Assembly (NCBI RefSeq): GCF_900086705.1
Contig: NZ_LT575483.1
Location: forward strand, 879,709-943,708
DNA length: 64,000 nt
Source: Massilibacillus massiliensis
Lineage (GTDB): Bacteria; Bacillota; Negativicutes; FLKF01
Direction: 5' to 3'
Position numbers and translations under genes: made by a program. How positions within the stretch are numbered: the first letter of the stretch is position 1; every line of letters starts with the position of its first letter. The notes below the pieces were generated by a model. The model had not been told where the DNA came from and did no database searches. It was given only the letters and a program-made list of their open reading frames with translations. This document shows, in pieces, positions 31,006 through 61,264 of the stretch.

Positions 31006-31114
31006 CACCTTCTTGTATAATCAGACTCAAATACTTTGTTGTATTTATATATTTATACAAATGTGACAAAAGTCCTGCAAACGTCACTTAAATAATAACA
31101 TATATTACCTCATA

Positions 31115-52982: not shown

Positions 52983-52999
52983 CATATAAATTATGAAAT

Positions 53000-53128
53000 A
53001 AGCAAATCTCCTTCTCAACTTAGGAAGGCAATGGAATTTCTCCCATTCCCCTGTGAATGAAATTTCATTCAGGCGCAATACCTTAGGCAATCAGCCCTTA
53101 GACATTTTTGCACGGAGCACATATGAAA
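53000..53128 (-). promoter_or_regulatory. Riboswitch-like leader of the cofactor operon
   Basis: The 337-nt gap upstream of the cofactor operon folds into several helices on the minus strand: GCTCC with GGAG as a likely closing stem, an 8-bp GAATGAAA/TTTCATTC hairpin (53056-53071), and AATGG/CCATT (about 53030-53047). Purine-rich conserved-looking stretches (GTCTAAGGG, GCCTAAGG) join them. With the terminator just downstream, this is the layout of a ligand-sensing riboswitch. Position suggests the molybdenum/tungsten cofactor family, but I could not match its consensus with certainty. Confidence 0.55.
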
Positions 53129-53240
53129 TTATAAACTATCACTTTATTCAAATGCGAAAATGCCTATTTCTATTGAAATCTAGAAGTTTTATAGAACAAA
53201 AACAGTCACTCAGATGGATGTTACACGTACACGAATAAAA

Positions 53241-54248
53241 TTAATAGATCGACTGCAATTTTTTTATACGTTTTTGTTCGCATTTTCGGCAAATTGTATA
53301 AATTCCTTTTATAATAGCACCACATTTTTCACAAATCGTCAAGTGTTTTTGCAAGATACTGACATATTCTTTACAAAAAACATTTTCCAATGTGCTATTT
53401 TTATCGGAAATTTCTAAGGATTTTTGCGGACAAACATGTTGACAAACCCCGCAGCCACTACAAGCACTCTGTTTGTGCTGCAGCATCATCCATTGATTTT
53501 TTTCATCTTCAACAATTCGCATCGCTTGCTTCCGACAAGCCCGAACGCAAACACCACACATATTGCAGTCCTCGGTTACTTTTGCTCCTTTAAAAAGGGG
53601 CGCAGCGCCCCCTTTTACCTGAGGCAGCTTACACTTCAATTCATCTATAAGTAATTCCCTAAAACTTAAAACTTGTGCAGTTACGGGAAGCACTTCACCA
53701 ATCGATTGCTTTGCTTTCGTAAAGAAGAAATTTAATAAATCGCGTCGATTTAATTTTTCTGCAACTTTTTTCCGTTCTCCTAAGAAAACAATTTGTTTGA
53801 TACCCACTGCGGACAAAAATGCATTCACCTGTTTCACCATTCGCTGTACATATACAACTGCATTTGCATTACACTGACCACATTCCGCTTGATCAAAACA
53901 GAGGATCACTTCTGCTTGGATTGCTAAATAAGCAAGTTCATATGGATCAAGCTTAGCCAAACAAGCGATATAGCCATCACATTTGATTTGATTGCAGAAA
54001 ATTTCCAGTGTTCCCTTTTTCATTTTTAAAGGATACCGCTGCTGCTCTTTCCATGAAAAAACTTGCGCAGGACATTTACTGAAACACAAACCGCACGCTG
54101 TACAATTTTGCTGAATTAAAATCTGTCCAGACGGATTTATCTCAATTGCCTCATGTGGACAAATCTCTTGGCATTTTGTACAATGCATATCCCGCATCCG
54201 CTGATTTACACAGGAAGATTGTCTGACCAGCATTTCATCTACGCCCAT
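53241..54248 (-). CDS. Multi-cluster ferredoxin-like protein
   Basis: The 335 residues carry four 4Fe-4S motifs: two near residues 20-60 (CTKCQEICP; CTACGLCFSKCP) and two near 230-275 (CNMCGVCVRACRK; CSGCGVCQHVCP). Between them is a region with CNQIKCDGYIACL and CFDQAECGQC that resembles heterodisulfide-reductase-linked iron-sulfur proteins. The C-terminus has a zinc ribbon (CEKCG, CRKC). It is the last gene of the Psr-like operon, 50 nt after nrfD. It probably carries electrons for the reductase or delivers a cluster or cofactor. Confidence 0.82.
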   Translation of the reverse strand: MGVDEMLVRQSSCVNQRMRDMHCTKCQEICPHEAIEINPSGQILIQQNCTACGLCFSKCPAQVFSWKEQQRYPLKMKKGTLEIFCNQIKCDGYIACLAKLDPYELAYLAIQAEVILCFDQAECGQCNANAVVYVQRMVKQVNAFLSAVGIKQIVFLGERKKVAEKLNRRDLLNFFFTKAKQSIGEVLPVTAQVLSFRELLIDELKCKLPQVKGGAAPLFKGAKVTEDCNMCGVCVRACRKQAMRIVEDEKNQWMMLQHKQSACSGCGVCQHVCPQKSLEISDKNSTLENVFCKEYVSILQKHLTICEKCGAIIKGIYTICRKCEQKRIKKLQSIY

Positions 54249-54298
54249 ATCTTACACCTTCATTTATAAATGACGACTCTACTAGACTGCCCATTTGC

Positions 54299-55276
54299 TT
54301 AATAAAAAATTTGTCCCGCATATAGCATATAAAACCGCAGCAACATAACACCAGTCAGTACCAATACAGAATTCACTAACAATGTCCCCACTGGAACTGG
54401 TGCACTTTCGCTTTGTTCATAATGATGTAACGAAAATGCAATCACAAGCAACGGCCCAATTAAGCCAACGCCAATAATGCCAAACCAAAACACTTTTGCC
54501 CAAATGCCGATCGTTAATGCCTGATGCCCAACAACTGCATACTGTCCGCCCATGTTAAACAATCCGGTAAACATGACAAACAAAATGAATAACTCGGTTG
54601 GTATTAATTTCGTATCCAATGAAAGCAAATATTTTAAATTGCTTTCTCGTACAGATTCTTTAAATACCGTAACACTTAACGCAATGCAAGCTGCTACACC
54701 GGAAGAAATACCAGACACCAAGAACAATACTGGAAGCAAAGGCACATTGAGCAAAGGTTTCGCCACCAACGCCGACAATAAAAACCCGGTATAAGCCGCA
54801 ATCCCCAATGCAAGCACCACCATAATCCAGTCAAACCATCTGCCAGCCTTTTCAAACCATTCAACAATAAAAAGAAAAGGTTTTACCGCCCATGCTGTTA
54901 AAGAATACTCCAAAAGTTCTTTTTTAAAGATAACAACACCAAAAATCGTCATGAAAAGAGAATATATGCTTAATAAAATAACACCAATTGACATTACAGA
55001 GTTTAAATTAAAATGCAGCATCAAAAGCCAAAAACTAAGCGGTTTACCCAAATCTACAATTAACAAAGCCAGACCTAAACTAATCGCCGGCAAAGCAATC
55101 ACTGCGCCAGCTTTCATAATCCCATCATAACCTTGACTTAAATTCGAGCGCCATTTTACTAAAATCGCTGATATCAAAGCACCCGCACTAAGTCCGGCTA
55201 AAAATAGATACACAGCAATCTCCCAACCCCAAATAATTTTGGTATACTGTGCCATACTTCCCCAAATTTGATCCAT
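54299..55276 (-). CDS. NrfD/PsrC-type membrane subunit
   Basis: The 325 residues form about nine membrane helices of the NrfD/PsrC family (AVYLFLAGLSAGALISAILV near the N-terminus, FLVSGISSGVAACIAL in the middle). This subunit oxidises quinol or menaquinol and passes electrons to the FeS subunit. Its ATG shares the TAATG overlap with the stop of the upstream FeS gene, so the two are tightly coupled. Confidence 0.9.
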   Translation of the reverse strand: MDQIWGSMAQYTKIIWGWEIAVYLFLAGLSAGALISAILVKWRSNLSQGYDGIMKAGAVIALPAISLGLALLIVDLGKPLSFWLLMLHFNLNSVMSIGVILLSIYSLFMTIFGVVIFKKELLEYSLTAWAVKPFLFIVEWFEKAGRWFDWIMVVLALGIAAYTGFLLSALVAKPLLNVPLLPVLFLVSGISSGVAACIALSVTVFKESVRESNLKYLLSLDTKLIPTELFILFVMFTGLFNMGGQYAVVGHQALTIGIWAKVFWFGIIGVGLIGPLLVIAFSLHHYEQSESAPVPVGTLLVNSVLVLTGVMLLRFYMLYAGQIFY

Positions 55277-55848
55277 TATTTTTCACCTCCGTGCCGATTT
55301 GGAATCACAATGAGCTTCGGATTGGTATGCAAGGATTCCTTATATTTTACGGTGAATTGTTGCTTGATCGCTTTACAGATCGCACTATTTTGATCATTTA
55401 AATCACCAAAGACAAGTGCTCCCGTCGGACACATGGATACACAAGCAGGCTTCTCCCCTTGCTGCACCCTGTTTTCATAACAAAACGTACACTTATCCAC
55501 AGCACCGGTTTTAGGATCCAGATAACGTGATTGGTACGGACAGGCAGCAATACAATAGCCGCAGCCGACACATTTTTCTTCATCTACCATGTTAATGCCT
55601 TCTTCATTTGTATAAGAAGCCCCGGTAGGACACACAGGTACACATGGTGCATCATCGCACATCACACAGGATTGACGGTGAAAGTCCATACGTAAATTGG
55701 GAAATTCTCCTTTTGGTCCTTCAATTCTCACTTGCAGTCTATGCACGTCATCGTGCACTTTATTTTCAGCCCGACAGGCAATTGAACATGCTTGGCACCC
55801 AATACAAGCATTGCTGTCATATAGCATTCCATATCGTTTATTTGCCAT
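55276..55848 (-). CDS. 4Fe-4S electron-transfer subunit, PsrB/PhsB/DmsB type
   Basis: The 190 residues hold four 4Fe-4S motifs: CIGCQACSIACR, CVMCDDAPCVPVCP, CVGCGYCIAACP and CTFCYENR...CVSMCP. This is the normal four-cluster subunit of the DMSO-reductase superfamily. It links the NrfD subunit to the molybdopterin subunit. An ATG at 55848 with AGGGGAG upstream is preferred to one 18 nt earlier. Confidence 0.93.
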   Translation of the reverse strand: MANKRYGMLYDSNACIGCQACSIACRAENKVHDDVHRLQVRIEGPKGEFPNLRMDFHRQSCVMCDDAPCVPVCPTGASYTNEEGINMVDEEKCVGCGYCIAACPYQSRYLDPKTGAVDKCTFCYENRVQQGEKPACVSMCPTGALVFGDLNDQNSAICKAIKQQFTVKYKESLHTNPKLIVIPNRHGGEK

Positions 55849-55871
55849 CTTTCTTCTCCCCTCCAACTACA

Positions 55872-58178
55872 CTAAATTTTCTTTATATCAATACCTGCCG
55901 TATGCAAGGACATCGCACAAACTGGTGCAAATGCTGTAGGCAACATAATATTAGAATTCGTTCCTTTTTTATGTGCACGTTTCATTTCCGGTGCCACTCT
56001 GCCAAATCCAAAATACGTGAACGCAGAATCCGGACGAATTCCCTGACTCACCAAAATCGTCGCAGGCTGTTTACCAAACTCCGAAGAAATCTCAACCTTA
56101 TCCCCATTCTGTAAACCACGTTTTCCCGCAGTCTCCGGATGCATCCACAGTCTATTTTCCGGCATCAATTCATTCAGCCAAGGCACATTATGCGTATGCG
56201 CATTCGTGTGTACGGCAACTTTTCCCTGAATAAAATACAGCTGGTCATCCTCTTTTAGCTTCACTTCACGATATTTTGGCACCTCACGCCCCGGGAATAA
56301 TTCTTCCACTTCGCTAGAAGCCATCTCCATCTTTTTACTTGGTGTTTTTAAGCTTAATAGTGGACTCGGAATGATGCCCTGCTCATTCACTTTAGATGCC
56401 GCTGCCGGAAATTTTTTCACAAAAGCTGCCACCGATTTTGGATCACGTAAATATACAGAAGGCACCCCAAAATCAAGAAAACCTTTTTCTTTTGCCTTTT
56501 CTACTAAATCTTTGCGTCCGCCCATTTGTATGCGTCTCATTTCTTCGATGTCTTTCCATGGGAAATATGCACCCAAGCCCATTTTTTCAGCAAGTTCTTT
56601 GAAAATCTGCCAATTCGGCTTCGTATCATATACTGGCTCCACCGTCTTCTGACGCAATGTATATTTCGGTGCTCCGCCAGAGGCATCATTAAAGCCTTCA
56701 TCGCGCTCTAAGAATGTACTTTCCGGTAAAACAACATCTGCAAAATGTGCTGTATCTGTAATATACAAATCAGAGACAACGAGCAAGTCCAATTTTAGTA
56801 AAGATTCTCTGACTCGATTGGTATTCGATTGACTGATCATCGGATTATTCCGATAGACAAACCAACCTTTGATTGGATATGGTTTTTCCGTTAAAATCGC
56901 TTCCGGCAAATAGTGAACTACGCCATCACCTTTCGGTATAAAATAGTTTTGATGCCCCTTGACACCTGCACCATCTACTCGCTGTTTCATCTTTGGAAAT
57001 TTAGGAAGTTTTGGCGATTTAATGGTCGGAACCACTTCACTGCCAACCAATTTATTTATCATTGCAGCATTCTTGCCAAAGAATATCCCCCCTGGGACTT
57101 CACAATTGCCGATCAGCAGATTTACGTTAATCGCAGCTCTTCTAAATTCAAATTCTTCCGGTGTAGTGCCTGTGCGCCACCCCCAGTCAAGTGCTGCTTG
57201 CGGGCTGGCAGCTGCAAATTCTTTCGCAATACGTTCAATATCTTTTGCCGCTATTCCCGTTTCTTTTTCTGCCCATTCCGGCGTGGTTGTTTCAACAGAA
57301 GCTTGAATTGCATCAAACCCAACTGTAAATGTATCCACGAATGCTTTATCATACAATCTATCGCGAATGATTACGTGTGTCAGTGCCAAAATAAACGCCA
57401 AATCAGTTCCAGGTTTTATCGGATGCCATTCCGTTGCCTTCGCGGAAGTCACCGAAAATCTAGGATCAATTGAAATCAGTTTCGCACCTTTTCTAAGTGC
57501 ATTCATCAGTGAACGCGCTTGTGAAACATTGATCCCTTCAAAAAGATTTCGGCCTAATGTGATTAAATATTTTACATTACCATAATCAACATTGACTGAA
57601 TTCGTACCAAAAACAATATCTCTGGCAACAGTTCGTCCAAACGGACAAGTCGATTCATGTGTAAAAGTATTGGGTGAACCATATGCATTTGCAAACGTAT
57701 CCATATATTTTTTATGAATCCCGCCACGACACGAAAATGCCATCGACTCCGGACCATACTTCTCTTTTATTTCCGTCATTTTTTCTGCTATATAATCATA
57801 CGCTTCCTCCCAGGAAACTTCTTTCCACTTATTTTCGCCACGCTCACCTTGACGAATCAATGGTTTTTTTACCCGTTCCTGATCATAGGTTTGAGATAAA
57901 GCTGCGGCACCGCGGGCACAAAGCGTTCCCCCTGTAGAAGACCATTCCGGATTACCGGCAATGAAATCAACCTTACCATCTTTTACGCTGACTTCCATTG
58001 GACAACGTGTCGTACACATTTCACAATATGTACGGATCTTTTTTCTCTCCCCTTGTTTGCTTTCATCCGCTGCAAACAAAACGTTTTTTTCTAAATTGCT
58101 CGCCATTGCTACCGTTACGGCAGTCGCCCCAGATAACTTCAAAAAAGTCCTGCGCGAAATATTCTTTTTCATTTTCAA
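55872..58178 (-). CDS. Molybdopterin oxidoreductase, thiosulfate/polysulfide reductase type
   Basis: The 768 residues start with a Tat signal (SRRTFLK, then a hydrophobic stretch), so the enzyme acts outside the cytoplasm. A 4Fe-4S motif follows (CEMCTTRCPMEV...LCARG). The likely metal ligand is the Cys of HESTCPFGR near residue 175, as in PsrA/PhsA. The C-terminal molydopterin-binding domain is complete (NALMPENRLW region onward). The substrate may be polysulfide, thiosulfate, tetrathionate or an arsenic oxyanion; sequence alone does not decide. The start is TTG after GGAGGGAG, with an ATG two codons later. It is followed by its FeS and membrane subunits. Confidence 0.9.
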   Translation of the reverse strand: MKMKKNISRRTFLKLSGATAVTVAMASNLEKNVLFAADESKQGERKKIRTYCEMCTTRCPMEVSVKDGKVDFIAGNPEWSSTGGTLCARGAAALSQTYDQERVKKPLIRQGERGENKWKEVSWEEAYDYIAEKMTEIKEKYGPESMAFSCRGGIHKKYMDTFANAYGSPNTFTHESTCPFGRTVARDIVFGTNSVNVDYGNVKYLITLGRNLFEGINVSQARSLMNALRKGAKLISIDPRFSVTSAKATEWHPIKPGTDLAFILALTHVIIRDRLYDKAFVDTFTVGFDAIQASVETTTPEWAEKETGIAAKDIERIAKEFAAASPQAALDWGWRTGTTPEEFEFRRAAINVNLLIGNCEVPGGIFFGKNAAMINKLVGSEVVPTIKSPKLPKFPKMKQRVDGAGVKGHQNYFIPKGDGVVHYLPEAILTEKPYPIKGWFVYRNNPMISQSNTNRVRESLLKLDLLVVSDLYITDTAHFADVVLPESTFLERDEGFNDASGGAPKYTLRQKTVEPVYDTKPNWQIFKELAEKMGLGAYFPWKDIEEMRRIQMGGRKDLVEKAKEKGFLDFGVPSVYLRDPKSVAAFVKKFPAAASKVNEQGIIPSPLLSLKTPSKKMEMASSEVEELFPGREVPKYREVKLKEDDQLYFIQGKVAVHTNAHTHNVPWLNELMPENRLWMHPETAGKRGLQNGDKVEISSEFGKQPATILVSQGIRPDSAFTYFGFGRVAPEMKRAHKKGTNSNIMLPTAFAPVCAMSLHTAGIDIKKI

Positions 58179-58193
58179 AACTCTCCCTCCACT

Positions 58194-59117
58194 TTATTCC
58201 GATTTAGCAACTTTTGAAGCCTTATCCTTTATTTTTTGAATTCCCATCGTTGTTGCTAAACTCGTGTAGTCCGACATATCATTCGGAACAAGCACAATTC
58301 CCCCTCTTTCTTTTACACTTTCATAGAGTAAACTCATAGATTTTAATTTAACCGCGATATCATTTTCCTCATAAATTTTTGCAGCATTCACAAAATTTTC
58401 AGCAATTTCACATTCTGCCGAAGCAAGAATAATTCTCGCTCTTCGTTCACGTTCTGCCTGCGCTTCTCGTGACATAGCATCTTGCAGCGCTTCTGGAATA
58501 ATAACATCACGAATTTCCACCGATTGTACAGCGATGCCCCAAGCTTCAGTTCTTTGATCAATCATGTTCTGTAAATGTATATCAATATTTTCTCTTCCAG
58601 CCAGCATATCCGATAACATCGTCTTTCCAATCACATCTCTAAGGGCTGTTTGTGCTGCCCATGAAACAGCCTCCAAATAATCAGCGACTTCTAATGCTGC
58701 TTTTTCAGCATCCCATACAACCCAAAATAAGATCGCATCCACATCGACTGGTACATTATCCTTTGTCAACGTCTGCTCTGCGTTAAATGCACTCGCATGA
58801 ATCCGCTGGTCAATCCAATATGGAACTGTATCAATTAACGGAATTGTAAAAAACAAGCCTGGGCCTGCTAACCGGTGAAATTTTCCCAGTCTTAAAACCA
58901 CGGCTTTTTCCCATTGCTGTGCAACTTTCAATGATTGTGAAGCAATAACCGCCAAAATAAATCCGGCAACAATCCATAAGCACTCATCTTGTACATATGC
59001 GTAACGGAAAAAGCCGGCAAAAACTGCCAAAAATATAACAAATGGCAAAAAGGTTTTTGGCGTATTTGATTTCTTGGTCGAAATTTTTATATTCTGCTTA
59101 TTTGAAAAACTCTCCAT
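58194..59117 (-). CDS. Slipin (SPFH/band 7 membrane protein)
   Basis: The 307 residues have two N-terminal hydrophobic segments (about 23-40 and 46-62) followed by an SPFH/PHB domain (EKAVVLRLGKFHRLAGPGLFFTIPLIDTVPYWIDQRIHASAFNAEQTLTKDNVPVDVDAILFWVV) and a coiled-coil tail with AMSREAQAERERRARIILA. Slipins form membrane ring assemblies and organise membrane patches. It lies 13 nt after the GntR gene and 15 nt before the molybdoenzyme gene, so it is part of that operon. A role in housing the respiratory complex is inference. Confidence 0.92.
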   Translation of the reverse strand: MESFSNKQNIKISTKKSNTPKTFLPFVIFLAVFAGFFRYAYVQDECLWIVAGFILAVIASQSLKVAQQWEKAVVLRLGKFHRLAGPGLFFTIPLIDTVPYWIDQRIHASAFNAEQTLTKDNVPVDVDAILFWVVWDAEKAALEVADYLEAVSWAAQTALRDVIGKTMLSDMLAGRENIDIHLQNMIDQRTEAWGIAVQSVEIRDVIIPEALQDAMSREAQAERERRARIILASAECEIAENFVNAAKIYEENDIAVKLKSMSLLYESVKERGGIVLVPNDMSDYTSLATTMGIQKIKDKASKVAKSE

Positions 59118-59130
59118 ATCTCTAGCACCT

Positions 59131-59514
59131 CTATTTTCTATCTTTGATTTTATTTGTTAATCTTTCTATAATGTACGCTTCAGTAAATCCTAAAGATAAT
59201 GTCGTCTTGATAAACTCCTCCAAAATTTTATCAAGTTCTTTCTCTTTTTCATCATTCTCAACCCCCGTTGGAATTGCACATACAAAAGTTCCTCGCCCTT
59301 GCTGGGTTGAAATGATTCCCTCTCGCTCTAATTCTGAATACGACCGTGCCACCGTATTACTGTTCACCCTTAAATCCACGGCCATTTGTCGAACAGTTGG
59401 CAATTTTGCACCTTGTACATATACGCCTGTAAGAATTAGCAGCTTTAGCCCTTCTTTTAGCTGAATGTATACTGGCACACCACTCTTTGTATCTATCTTA
59501 ATCAGTAAAACCAC
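59131..59514 (-). CDS. GntR-family regulator, YtrA subfamily
   Basis: The 127 residues include a winged helix (GVPVYIQLKEGLKLLILTGVYVQGAKLPTVRQMAVDLRVNSNTVARSYSELEREGIISTQQGRGTFV) and only a short C-terminal helical tail, as in YtrA. YtrA-type proteins repress their own operon, often with transport or membrane genes. The start is unclear: GTG at 59514 is too close to AAAGGAAG, and an in-frame CTG three codons later has better spacing. A palindromic operator candidate lies upstream. Confidence 0.88.
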   Translation of the reverse strand: MVLLIKIDTKSGVPVYIQLKEGLKLLILTGVYVQGAKLPTVRQMAVDLRVNSNTVARSYSELEREGIISTQQGRGTFVCAIPTGVENDEKEKELDKILEEFIKTTLSLGFTEAYIIERLTNKIKDRK

Positions 59515-59581
59515 TTCCTTTGAGCGCGAATCATCTATAAATACACATGATTATGTAGAATTATCTGTAAAGATTATAACA

Positions 59582-59603
59582 TTGTATTAATGTATTAGTA
59601 CAA
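59582..59603. promoter_or_regulatory. Palindromic operator candidate for the GntR regulator
   Basis: A 22-bp palindrome with half sites TTGTATTAATG and TTGTACTAATA (9 of 11 matching) lies between the GntR and glutamate-synthase-like genes. TATAAT (minus strand) follows it toward GntR, so a repressor here would block that promoter. The 355-nt divergent gap holds nothing else I can name apart from AT-rich promoter sequence. Confidence 0.65.
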
Positions 59604-59869
59604 TATTATAATCTTATTACAATTTATGATCGCAATAAATAAATCTAATTGATGGATTTTTTTGTACTGTGCATATTTTTATCTGTAAACTCTATGAAAC
59701 CAGCCAAATTTATTCCCATCCTATCACTTATCAACAAAGCTACATAAATTTGCACAAACTTTTGTTGATAACTTCCTTTGTTCGTTTTTTACACGAATAC
59801 AAAAACTGCATCCTATTGGTTTATTTCTTCATAAATCGCATATACTACTAAAAAAACAAAGGAAACATT

Positions 59870-61264
59870 ATGAAAATAACAGCTTATCTTAACTGGATTT
59901 TGATATTGACATCTTTTTTAACAATTTTAATACTTACTTTACTGGTTTTGGCAAAACCTATTTTTCGGTTTGCAACAAAAAAAATAACCAATCATGCCTT
60001 AAATCTTTTACTTACAGAAACCTATACGAAAAATATAATCGAAATACTGCCCTCTTTTAAACGTTTTTCTATTCTAAATTTTTTAGAATTAAGCCTGCGT
60101 GCAGAAGAAGGAAAAATCATCAATCGCCCCCTTGGTTCCGTTAAACATTTTCCGGGCTATGATAACTTAATGTTCAATCCGCGCCAGCTTACAAAACTTT
60201 CACTTCCATTTGATACACCGATTGATATGTCTGTAACCATAGGTCCAAATGTACAAAAGCCTATGACGATAAAAATCCCCCTAATGATTGGCGGCATGGC
60301 CTATGGCTTATCCTTAAGCGAGGAAGCTAAGACAGCCTTAGCCAAAGCATCAAAACGATTACATACAGCCACTTGTTCTGGCGAAGGTCCTTTTCTGCCC
60401 GCAGAGGCAGCAGAAGCTGGCAAATTTGTTTTACAAATTTGTCAATGGTCGTGGGGTGCGAGAACCAACGAACAAATTCAATCGGCTGCTATGTTGGAAG
60501 TCAAAATGGGACAAGGTGCGGATCTAGGCACAACGACCATCGAAGCAGCAGACTTTGCCGGTAAAGCGCAAGTACTTTCGGGATTAAGACCAAATGAGAA
60601 TGCAGTCTCTCTACCGGCACCACCAGGTGTTGAAAAAAAAGAAGATTGGCCGGCATTTATGCAAAACTTACGTCAGCGAGCCAACGGAATCCCAATTGCA
60701 TTAAAACTTATGGCAACAGACCGAATCGAAAAGGAATTGGCTTTTGCTGTGGAACTAGGCTTTGATGCAATCGTAATCGGCGGCGCTGAAGGCGGCTCTC
60801 ATGGAACACCGCCAATTAAGCAAGATGACTTTGGTATACCGGGGTTAATTGCTTTAACACGTGCAAAACATTACTTAGGCGATAGACCTATCAGCTTAAT
60901 TGCCGCTGGCGGTTATTTTACACCGGGCCAATGTCTGAAAGCCTTAGCCTTAGGCGCAGACGCCATTTACCTCGGCACTGTCCCTCTATTTGCACTGACA
61001 CATAATCAAATCGAAAAAATACTTCCGTGGGAACCGCCAACTACATTGGTTTATTATAATTCTTCAACGAAAACACAGCTAAACATAGAACAGTCAGCAG
61101 TCAGCGTAACAAATACCTTTACTTCCATGATTTTGGAAATGCAAGAAGCAATGCGTGCATTGGGCAAAGCCTCCTTAAAAGAACTAAGTTCTAATGATCT
61201 CGTTGCCTTAGACAGCTTCAGTGCAAAAGCGGCAGGGGTCAAACGAACCTCATTTTTAAGATAA
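59870..61264 (+). CDS. FMN-binding glutamate-synthase-like membrane protein
   Basis: The 464 residues start with one membrane helix (about 9-30). The rest matches the FMN-binding barrel of glutamate synthase large subunit (IPLMIGGMAYGLSLSEEAKTALAKA, ATCSGEGPFLPAE, MGQGADLGTT, IVIGGAEGGSHGTPP, LIAAGGYFTPGQCLKALALGADAIYLGT). The glutaminase and FeS parts are missing, so it is not a full glutamate synthase. These truncated, membrane-tethered forms are widespread and their reaction is unknown. AAAGGAAAC precedes the ATG. Confidence 0.87.
   Translation: MKITAYLNWILILTSFLTILILTLLVLAKPIFRFATKKITNHALNLLLTETYTKNIIEILPSFKRFSILNFLELSLRAEEGKIINRPLGSVKHFPGYDNLMFNPRQLTKLSLPFDTPIDMSVTIGPNVQKPMTIKIPLMIGGMAYGLSLSEEAKTALAKASKRLHTATCSGEGPFLPAEAAEAGKFVLQICQWSWGARTNEQIQSAAMLEVKMGQGADLGTTTIEAADFAGKAQVLSGLRPNENAVSLPAPPGVEKKEDWPAFMQNLRQRANGIPIALKLMATDRIEKELAFAVELGFDAIVIGGAEGGSHGTPPIKQDDFGIPGLIALTRAKHYLGDRPISLIAAGGYFTPGQCLKALALGADAIYLGTVPLFALTHNQIEKILPWEPPTTLVYYNSSTKTQLNIEQSAVSVTNTFTSMILEMQEAMRALGKASLKELSSNDLVALDSFSAKAAGVKRTSFLR

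Follow-up and report, generated by a model that had tools for sequence, protein, structure and literature searches.

Within a 64,000-nucleotide stretch of the Massilibacillus massiliensis genome (hereafter the window), we find that a YtrA-type GntR-family regulator and a slipin head an operon predicted to encode a thiosulfate or polysulfide reductase. Comparison of sequences among relatives supports both the linkage of these genes and their regulation by a local repressor. With respect to the physical role of the slipin, we infer that it may form a dome that corrals or stabilises NrfD-anchored reductases as an accessory component, and we hold this reading of the operon to be nearly an even call. 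We rate the combination as new and recurrent, although its parts are known. An earlier, sequence-only reading of the window knew of no description of such an operon, and as far as our incomplete coverage of the literature reaches, no paper was found that joins a YtrA/GntR regulator with a slipin or stomatin, or with this operon.

An operon for a predicted sulfur-compound reductase

The six genes lie on the minus strand from 59514 to 53241 in the order GntR, slipin, molybdoenzyme, NrfC-like, NrfD and polyferredoxin (Table 1), and all were found as described in the sequence-only reading. The gaps are 13 nt (GntR-slipin), 15 nt (slipin-phsA), 23 nt (phsA-nrfC, with an ATG start at 55848) and 50 nt (nrfD-polyferredoxin), and nrfC and nrfD overlap by 1 nt, so the spacing is -1 to 50 nt where 0-50 nt had been claimed. 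The domains found are GntR in the regulator, Band_7/SPFH in the slipin, Molybdopterin, Molydop_binding, Fe4S4 and a TAT signal in the catalytic subunit, a Fer4_11-type iron-sulfur protein, NrfD, and Fer4 repeats in the polyferredoxin. No ABC-transporter genes lie within the GntR-slipin-phs operon. By sequence, the only other phs operon with a polyferredoxin is that of one Sporomusa genome (G146), at 34% identity.

Table 1. Features of the operon and its surroundings (positions in the window).
Feature	Position	Strand	Description
YtrA-type GntR-family transcriptional regulator	59131..59514	-	127 aa by GTG, short C-terminal domain; PF00392, 54.8 bits
Slipin (stomatin/SPFH, eoslipin-like)	58194..59117	-	307 aa; Band_7, 119 bits
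PhsA/PsrA-type molybdopterin catalytic subunit with twin-arginine signal	55872..58178	-	768 aa; NF012032 PhsA, 1018.5 bits
NrfC/PsrB-like iron-sulfur subunit	55276..55848	-	190 aa by ATG; four 4Fe-4S motifs; without a signal of its own
NrfD/PsrC-like membrane anchor, predicted quinol-reactive	54299..55276	-	325 aa; PF03916, 238.8 bits
Polyferredoxin-like protein	53241..54248	-	335 aa; optional operon member
Molybdenum-cofactor (Moco) riboswitch	52992..53129	-	RF01055, 61.1 bits (gathering 36); neighbour, outside the operon
46-nt imperfect palindrome	59570..59615	.	20/22 arm pairs; predicted operator of the GntR repressor

The reductase had been called psrA-type. This stands in so far as the closest solved relative of the catalytic subunit is PsrA of Thermus thermophilus (2vpw), but the subunit scores as a thiosulfate reductase PhsA, above the NCBIfam cut-off (1018.5 vs 694 bits, NF012032), as do the PhsA homologues from four relatives. 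TAT_signal and Molybdop_Fe4S4 were found, the Fe-S cysteines align with those of 2vpw, and at the Mo-ligand position the Cys in ...HESTCPFGRTVA... is aligned to the Cys of ...SVSLCTAPREVA... in 2vpw. A four-cluster iron-sulfur subunit and an NrfD anchor, the latter without a match when queried against solved structures, complete the PhsABC/PsrABC subunit set. We predict from these features a thiosulfate or polysulfide reductase, the choice between the two substrates being beyond sequence. Downstream, the Moco riboswitch heads a cofactor operon (a MoCF-domain protein, moeA, moaC, moaA, MOSC-like and mog-like genes), and a molybdenum-cofactor synthesis operon at this place fits a molybdoenzyme.

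Conservation of the linkage in the class

A search within the window genome's own order returned that genome only, and conservation was therefore tested at the class and phylum levels. PhsA (threshold E <= 1e-150) is carried by 8 of 380 genomes of the class. The order GntR-slipin-phsA-nrfC-nrfD is found in six of these eight, from five families (the window genome G000, two Sporomusa genomes, G002, G006 and G063), and GntR-slipin or a remnant of it in all eight. The sequence-only reading had set beforehand, as the check that could refute it, whether slipin and reductase are linked in relatives; they are linked in several families, and chance juxtaposition of the two was rejected on this conserved gene order.

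The two remaining genomes show how the pair can come apart. In G022, slipin and phsA are on separate contigs that both end in transposase-like sequence, which we read as an insertion element between them. In G001, whose PhsA is the most similar (83%), all but approximately 39 codons of the slipin have been deleted between an intact GntR gene and phsA; GntR, the operator described below and phsABC are retained, and a search of the rest of this genome (84% complete) gave no Band_7 protein. The slipin is normally retained in phs genomes, yet it would seem to be an accessory, dispensable component rather than an essential one, since this one relative has kept the reductase without it.

Genes for hydrogenase maturation (for HypD, Pfam confirms this) and an rpoN-like gene precede GntR-slipin in G002, G022 and G006 (L099, L100, L103), which suggests another tie to anaerobic metabolism.

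A predicted operator that moves with the reductase

The regulator has the traits of the YtrA subfamily, defined by GntR proteins of 120-130 aa with a C-terminal domain of ~50 aa (PMC6746942): its GntR domain spans residues 18-78, its length falls within this range, and its gene is the first of the operon. Another trait of the subfamily, a long palindromic operator at the regulator's own promoter and few targets, is matched by one near-perfect site of 22-24 bp per genome. The 22-bp palindrome reported earlier at the head of the operon (TTGTATTAATGTATTAGTACAA, 59582-59603) was recovered as the core of the longer palindrome in Table 1, and it has 0 mismatches to the motif common to the relatives, for which 0.05 matches with <=3 mismatches are expected by chance within the window. 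The arm pairing of 20/22 compares with a best of 18 in 40 windows simulated by a first-order Markov model. We used only sites with 0-2 mismatches, because matches with 3 mismatches are at noise level, a reversed control pattern giving similar counts.

Of ten genomes of the class searched, nine have a single copy of the motif TTGTAYTAATNNATTARTACAA at 0-1 mismatch (2 in G063; none in G090), always at the GntR-slipin/phs locus, and the motif is found at the phs operon in all eight PhsA genomes. Its place differs: GntR follows it in G001, in the two Sporomusa genomes (G118, G146) and in the window genome; G002, G006 and G063 have it between slipin and phsA; and in G022 it directly precedes phsA. 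That the operator moves with the reductase among relatives is strong comparative evidence that GntR controls phsABC; we consider the regulatory link well supported, and the earlier claim that the operon has its own operator strongly so. The reductase's own copy of the operator in G002, G006, G063 and G022 implies a separate transcript there.

Several further elements were seen around these sites. Because TATAAT is present on both strands in the outer arms of the 46-nt palindrome, the operator might also act on a divergent gene for a glutamate-synthase-domain FMN protein (59870-61264, plus strand), a gene not seen at the equivalent place in the relatives examined. A direct repeat of the operator half-site (59595-59631) adjoins the palindrome. 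A consensus promoter scan was uninformative (21 sites vs 19.8 expected). An operator-like palindrome with 2 mismatches at 31039-31060, beside response-regulator and P-II-like genes, is doubtful and may be due to chance. A single copy of a different palindrome, perfect over 22 bp (TTGGATTAATGGATTAATCCAA), is present in each of G118, G146, G022, G002 and G130 (loci L131, L132, L133 and L135, plus a site in L134); it lies near a longer GntR regulator and a gene like that of the small subunit of B12-dependent glutamate mutase, and is probably the operator of these genes.

The slipin and its respiratory neighbours

The best matches of the slipin to solved structures are Pyrococcus stomatin (3bk6, 1.9e-38) and the human stomatin domes (about 1e-37). 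A structure model of moderate quality (mean pLDDT 71, pTM 0.44), used for the layout of hairpin and helix only, places an N-terminal helical hairpin (24-43/47-77) before the SPFH domain and a long helix. An SPFH domain closest to stomatin and a predicted N-terminal membrane hairpin assign the protein to the stomatin family, with basic residues on the flanks of the hairpin suggesting a cytoplasmic position for the SPFH domain. Within the window genome no Band_7 protein other than the slipin was found, and in all six of the seven phs genomes with an intact slipin have it as their sole Band_7 protein; among these slipins the identity is 53-66%. Eoslipins are usually paired with NfeD (PMC2636767, PMC2258279), and SPFH1 proteins without NfeD were noted earlier in 50 genomes, without a YtrA or reductase partner (PMC2636767). 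Here, no NfeD gene lies beside the slipin in the 20 genomes examined, all of which have NfeD domains elsewhere (in the window genome a single one, about 440 kb from the slipin), and a classical eoslipin-NfeD operon was rejected on this account.

In a phylum sample of 39 Bacillota slipins, with the expectation derived from genome-wide NrfD and NapC/NirT positions, NrfD lies within 8 kb of 14 slipins (0.46 expected) and, outside the phs group, of 8/32 (0.37 expected), and NapC/NirT cytochromes lie within 3 kb of 5/39 (0.2 expected); the Poisson values for these counts treat related genomes as independent and overstate the significance, the enrichment amounting to about three or four clades. The respiratory neighbourhood of the Bacillota GntR-slipin is far above chance, and 20/39 slipins have neither neighbour at these distances. 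The neighbours themselves vary: MopB-TorD-NrfC-NrfD-GntR-slipin in G404, a convergent TorD/NrfC/MopB/NrfD set near the slipin in G573, and a MopB/NrfC/TorD/NrfD set adjoining GntR-slipin-moeA in G090. At the edge of a contig, G595 has NrfD-GntR-slipin; in G609, G585 and G561 the set beside the slipin is divergent, with the order histidine kinase-regulator-cytochrome-NrfC-NrfD; and the neighbours in G488, G381, G493, G457 and G452 are NapC/NirT multiheme cytochromes.

In a maximum-likelihood tree, the seven phs slipins cluster with the four from molybdoenzyme/NrfD loci (G090, G404, G573, G595; support 92/89), and this clade holds only slipins beside molybdoenzyme/NrfD genes. The slipins of the kinase-regulator-NrfD loci form one clade (100/98), and four of the five NapC slipins form another together with one unassigned slipin (99/98). 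These groupings imply that the respiratory association reflects about three or four lineages, and that the reductase partner changed inside the first of them.

Possible roles of the slipin

As we picture it from the comparative sequence data, the YtrA-type repressor would bind a single operator of 22-24 bp within the promoter region and so control GntR-slipin-phsABC together; in some relatives, phsABC would be controlled through an operator copy of its own. As is established for the enzyme family, PhsA would be exported via Tat together with PhsB and face the outer side of the membrane, with NrfD anchoring it and supplying electrons from quinol. With its N-terminal hairpin and cytoplasmic SPFH domain, the slipin may assemble into an oligomeric, stomatin-like dome at the cytoplasmic face, around or alongside the NrfD anchors, which would be stabilised or confined to a defined membrane patch. 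With the SPFH domain cytoplasmic and PhsA outward by Tat, such a dome could cover NrfD from inside with no clash with PhsAB. An envelope or redox cue would release the repressor, so that scaffold and reductase appear together. The earlier proposal that the slipin hosts the complex gains from the linkage in relatives, but is weakened by GntR-slipin pairs that lack a reductase and by the G001 reductase that lacks most of the slipin. A broader version, which we find possible but rather doubtful, is that NfeD-less, YtrA-linked slipins are dedicated membrane scaffolds of anaerobic respiration, forming domes that corral quinol-reacting anchors of the NrfD or NapC type, the terminal reductase being swapped from lineage to lineage while scaffold and repressor are kept.

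The main rival, which has a real though lesser than even chance of being right, is that GntR-slipin is a general envelope-stress pair in which the slipin protects the membrane, and that phsABC came under the operator of this pair because membrane stress arises from the reductase or from its products (sulfide, polysulfide), with no physical contact between slipin and reductase. Indeed, the pair is older and wider than the phs link. GntR is directly upstream of the slipin in nearly all of 80 genome loci with a slipin, the majority of them from Anaerolineae without any phs gene; pairs without reductase occur in other Bacillota (G130, G531, G523) and throughout Chloroflexota, and the pair is also present in Thermincola and Armatimonadota. 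The operator precedes the reductase-less pairs of G130, G531 and G523 (in G531 and G523, from other classes of the phylum, as a perfect copy) and, in a less perfect copy, that of G610; the Chloroflexota palindromes ahead of GntR, as a group, do not match the Bacillota operator. In Chloroflexota, an SdpI-like protein is next in 51/73 loci and an ABC-transporter ATPase nearby in 24/73. The phs operon of G001 persists without the slipin, and for another SPFH protein, B. subtilis YqfA, a role in resistance against toxic peptides has been reported (PMC2636767). Envelope stress alone, however, predicts neither the recurrent proximity of slipins to different NrfD or NapC/NirT complexes nor a clade of phs slipins limited to molybdoenzyme/NrfD neighbours. 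Separately, the Anaerolineae loci in which an SdpI/DUF1648 membrane protein, often with an ABC transporter, follows GntR-slipin (L018-L095, e.g. L055:8957-9604) are candidates for an envelope-stress or peptide-immunity operon.

SdpI sequesters SdpR at the membrane in B. subtilis. By analogy, the slipin could be a sensor arm that binds or sequesters the small YtrA-type repressor, so that the state of the membrane sets phs expression. We regard this as improbable: the tightest and widest linkage of the slipin is indeed with GntR and not with the reductase, and SdpI-like genes follow the pair in Chloroflexota, yet G001 retains repressor and operator without the slipin, and slipins without an adjoining GntR gene occur in several groups (G609, G585, G382, G511 and the second copy of G561). 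The very small effector domain of YtrA regulators has been proposed to lack a ligand pocket (PMC6746942), in which case a protein partner could give the signal. Lastly, that the slipin has no part in respiration and is only carried along with the regulator gene would agree with its loss in G001 and the insertion element in G022, but is very improbable given its intact state and identity in the other phs genomes, where it is mostly the sole Band_7 protein, and the several unrelated respiratory contexts of slipins.

The accessory-scaffold reading touches on a largely open field, the functions and membrane cargo of bacterial stomatin-like proteins. The operon pairs the only Band_7 protein of a genome with a defined, assayable respiratory complex and thereby makes the question of cargo directly testable, the more so as a relative without the slipin occurs in nature and the repressor has one predicted site. 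Scaffold genes beside varied anaerobic respiratory enzymes also allow a test of whether respiration in bacteria is organised by such scaffolds.

Comparison with known systems

The operon shares with PhsABC/PsrABC the subunit set, the Tat-exported catalytic subunit, the four-cluster iron-sulfur subunit, the NrfD anchor and a score above the PhsA cut-off, but differs in the GntR and slipin genes ahead of phsA and, in the window genome, the polyferredoxin gene behind. We know of no PhsABC or PsrABC operon with such a regulator-plus-slipin head. Like YtrA of S. acidocaldarius and the bacterial ytr operons, the regulator has 120-130 aa, is first in an autoregulated operon with a membrane-protein gene, and has a very small regulon and a ~24-bp palindromic operator (here predicted from sequence); the half-site repeat resembles the secondary half-sites described for archaeal YtrA. 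The typical, though not universal, partner of YtrA is an ABC transporter, which is found downstream of GntR-slipin in G610 and in some Chloroflexota loci, and pairing with unidentified membrane proteins is already known (PMC6746942), whereas here the partners are a slipin and a respiratory complex.

With the eoslipin-NfeD1b operons (SPFH1b; Pyrococcus PH1510/PH1511), the slipin shares its stomatin-like, non-paraslipin type, Pyrococcus and human stomatin being its best solved matches, but it lacks an adjoining gene for an NfeD/ClpP-type protease. The human stomatin domes enclose the multi-spanning membrane proteins AQP1 and UT-B (PMC12407830), and as in these domes and in the HflK/C cage around FtsH, a related SPFH protein would enclose membrane proteins in a patch, with the difference that the cargo here, the bacterial respiratory anchor NrfD, is only predicted. 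A bacterial respiratory cargo, if true, would extend the stomatin-dome principle (PMC12407830) to energy metabolism.
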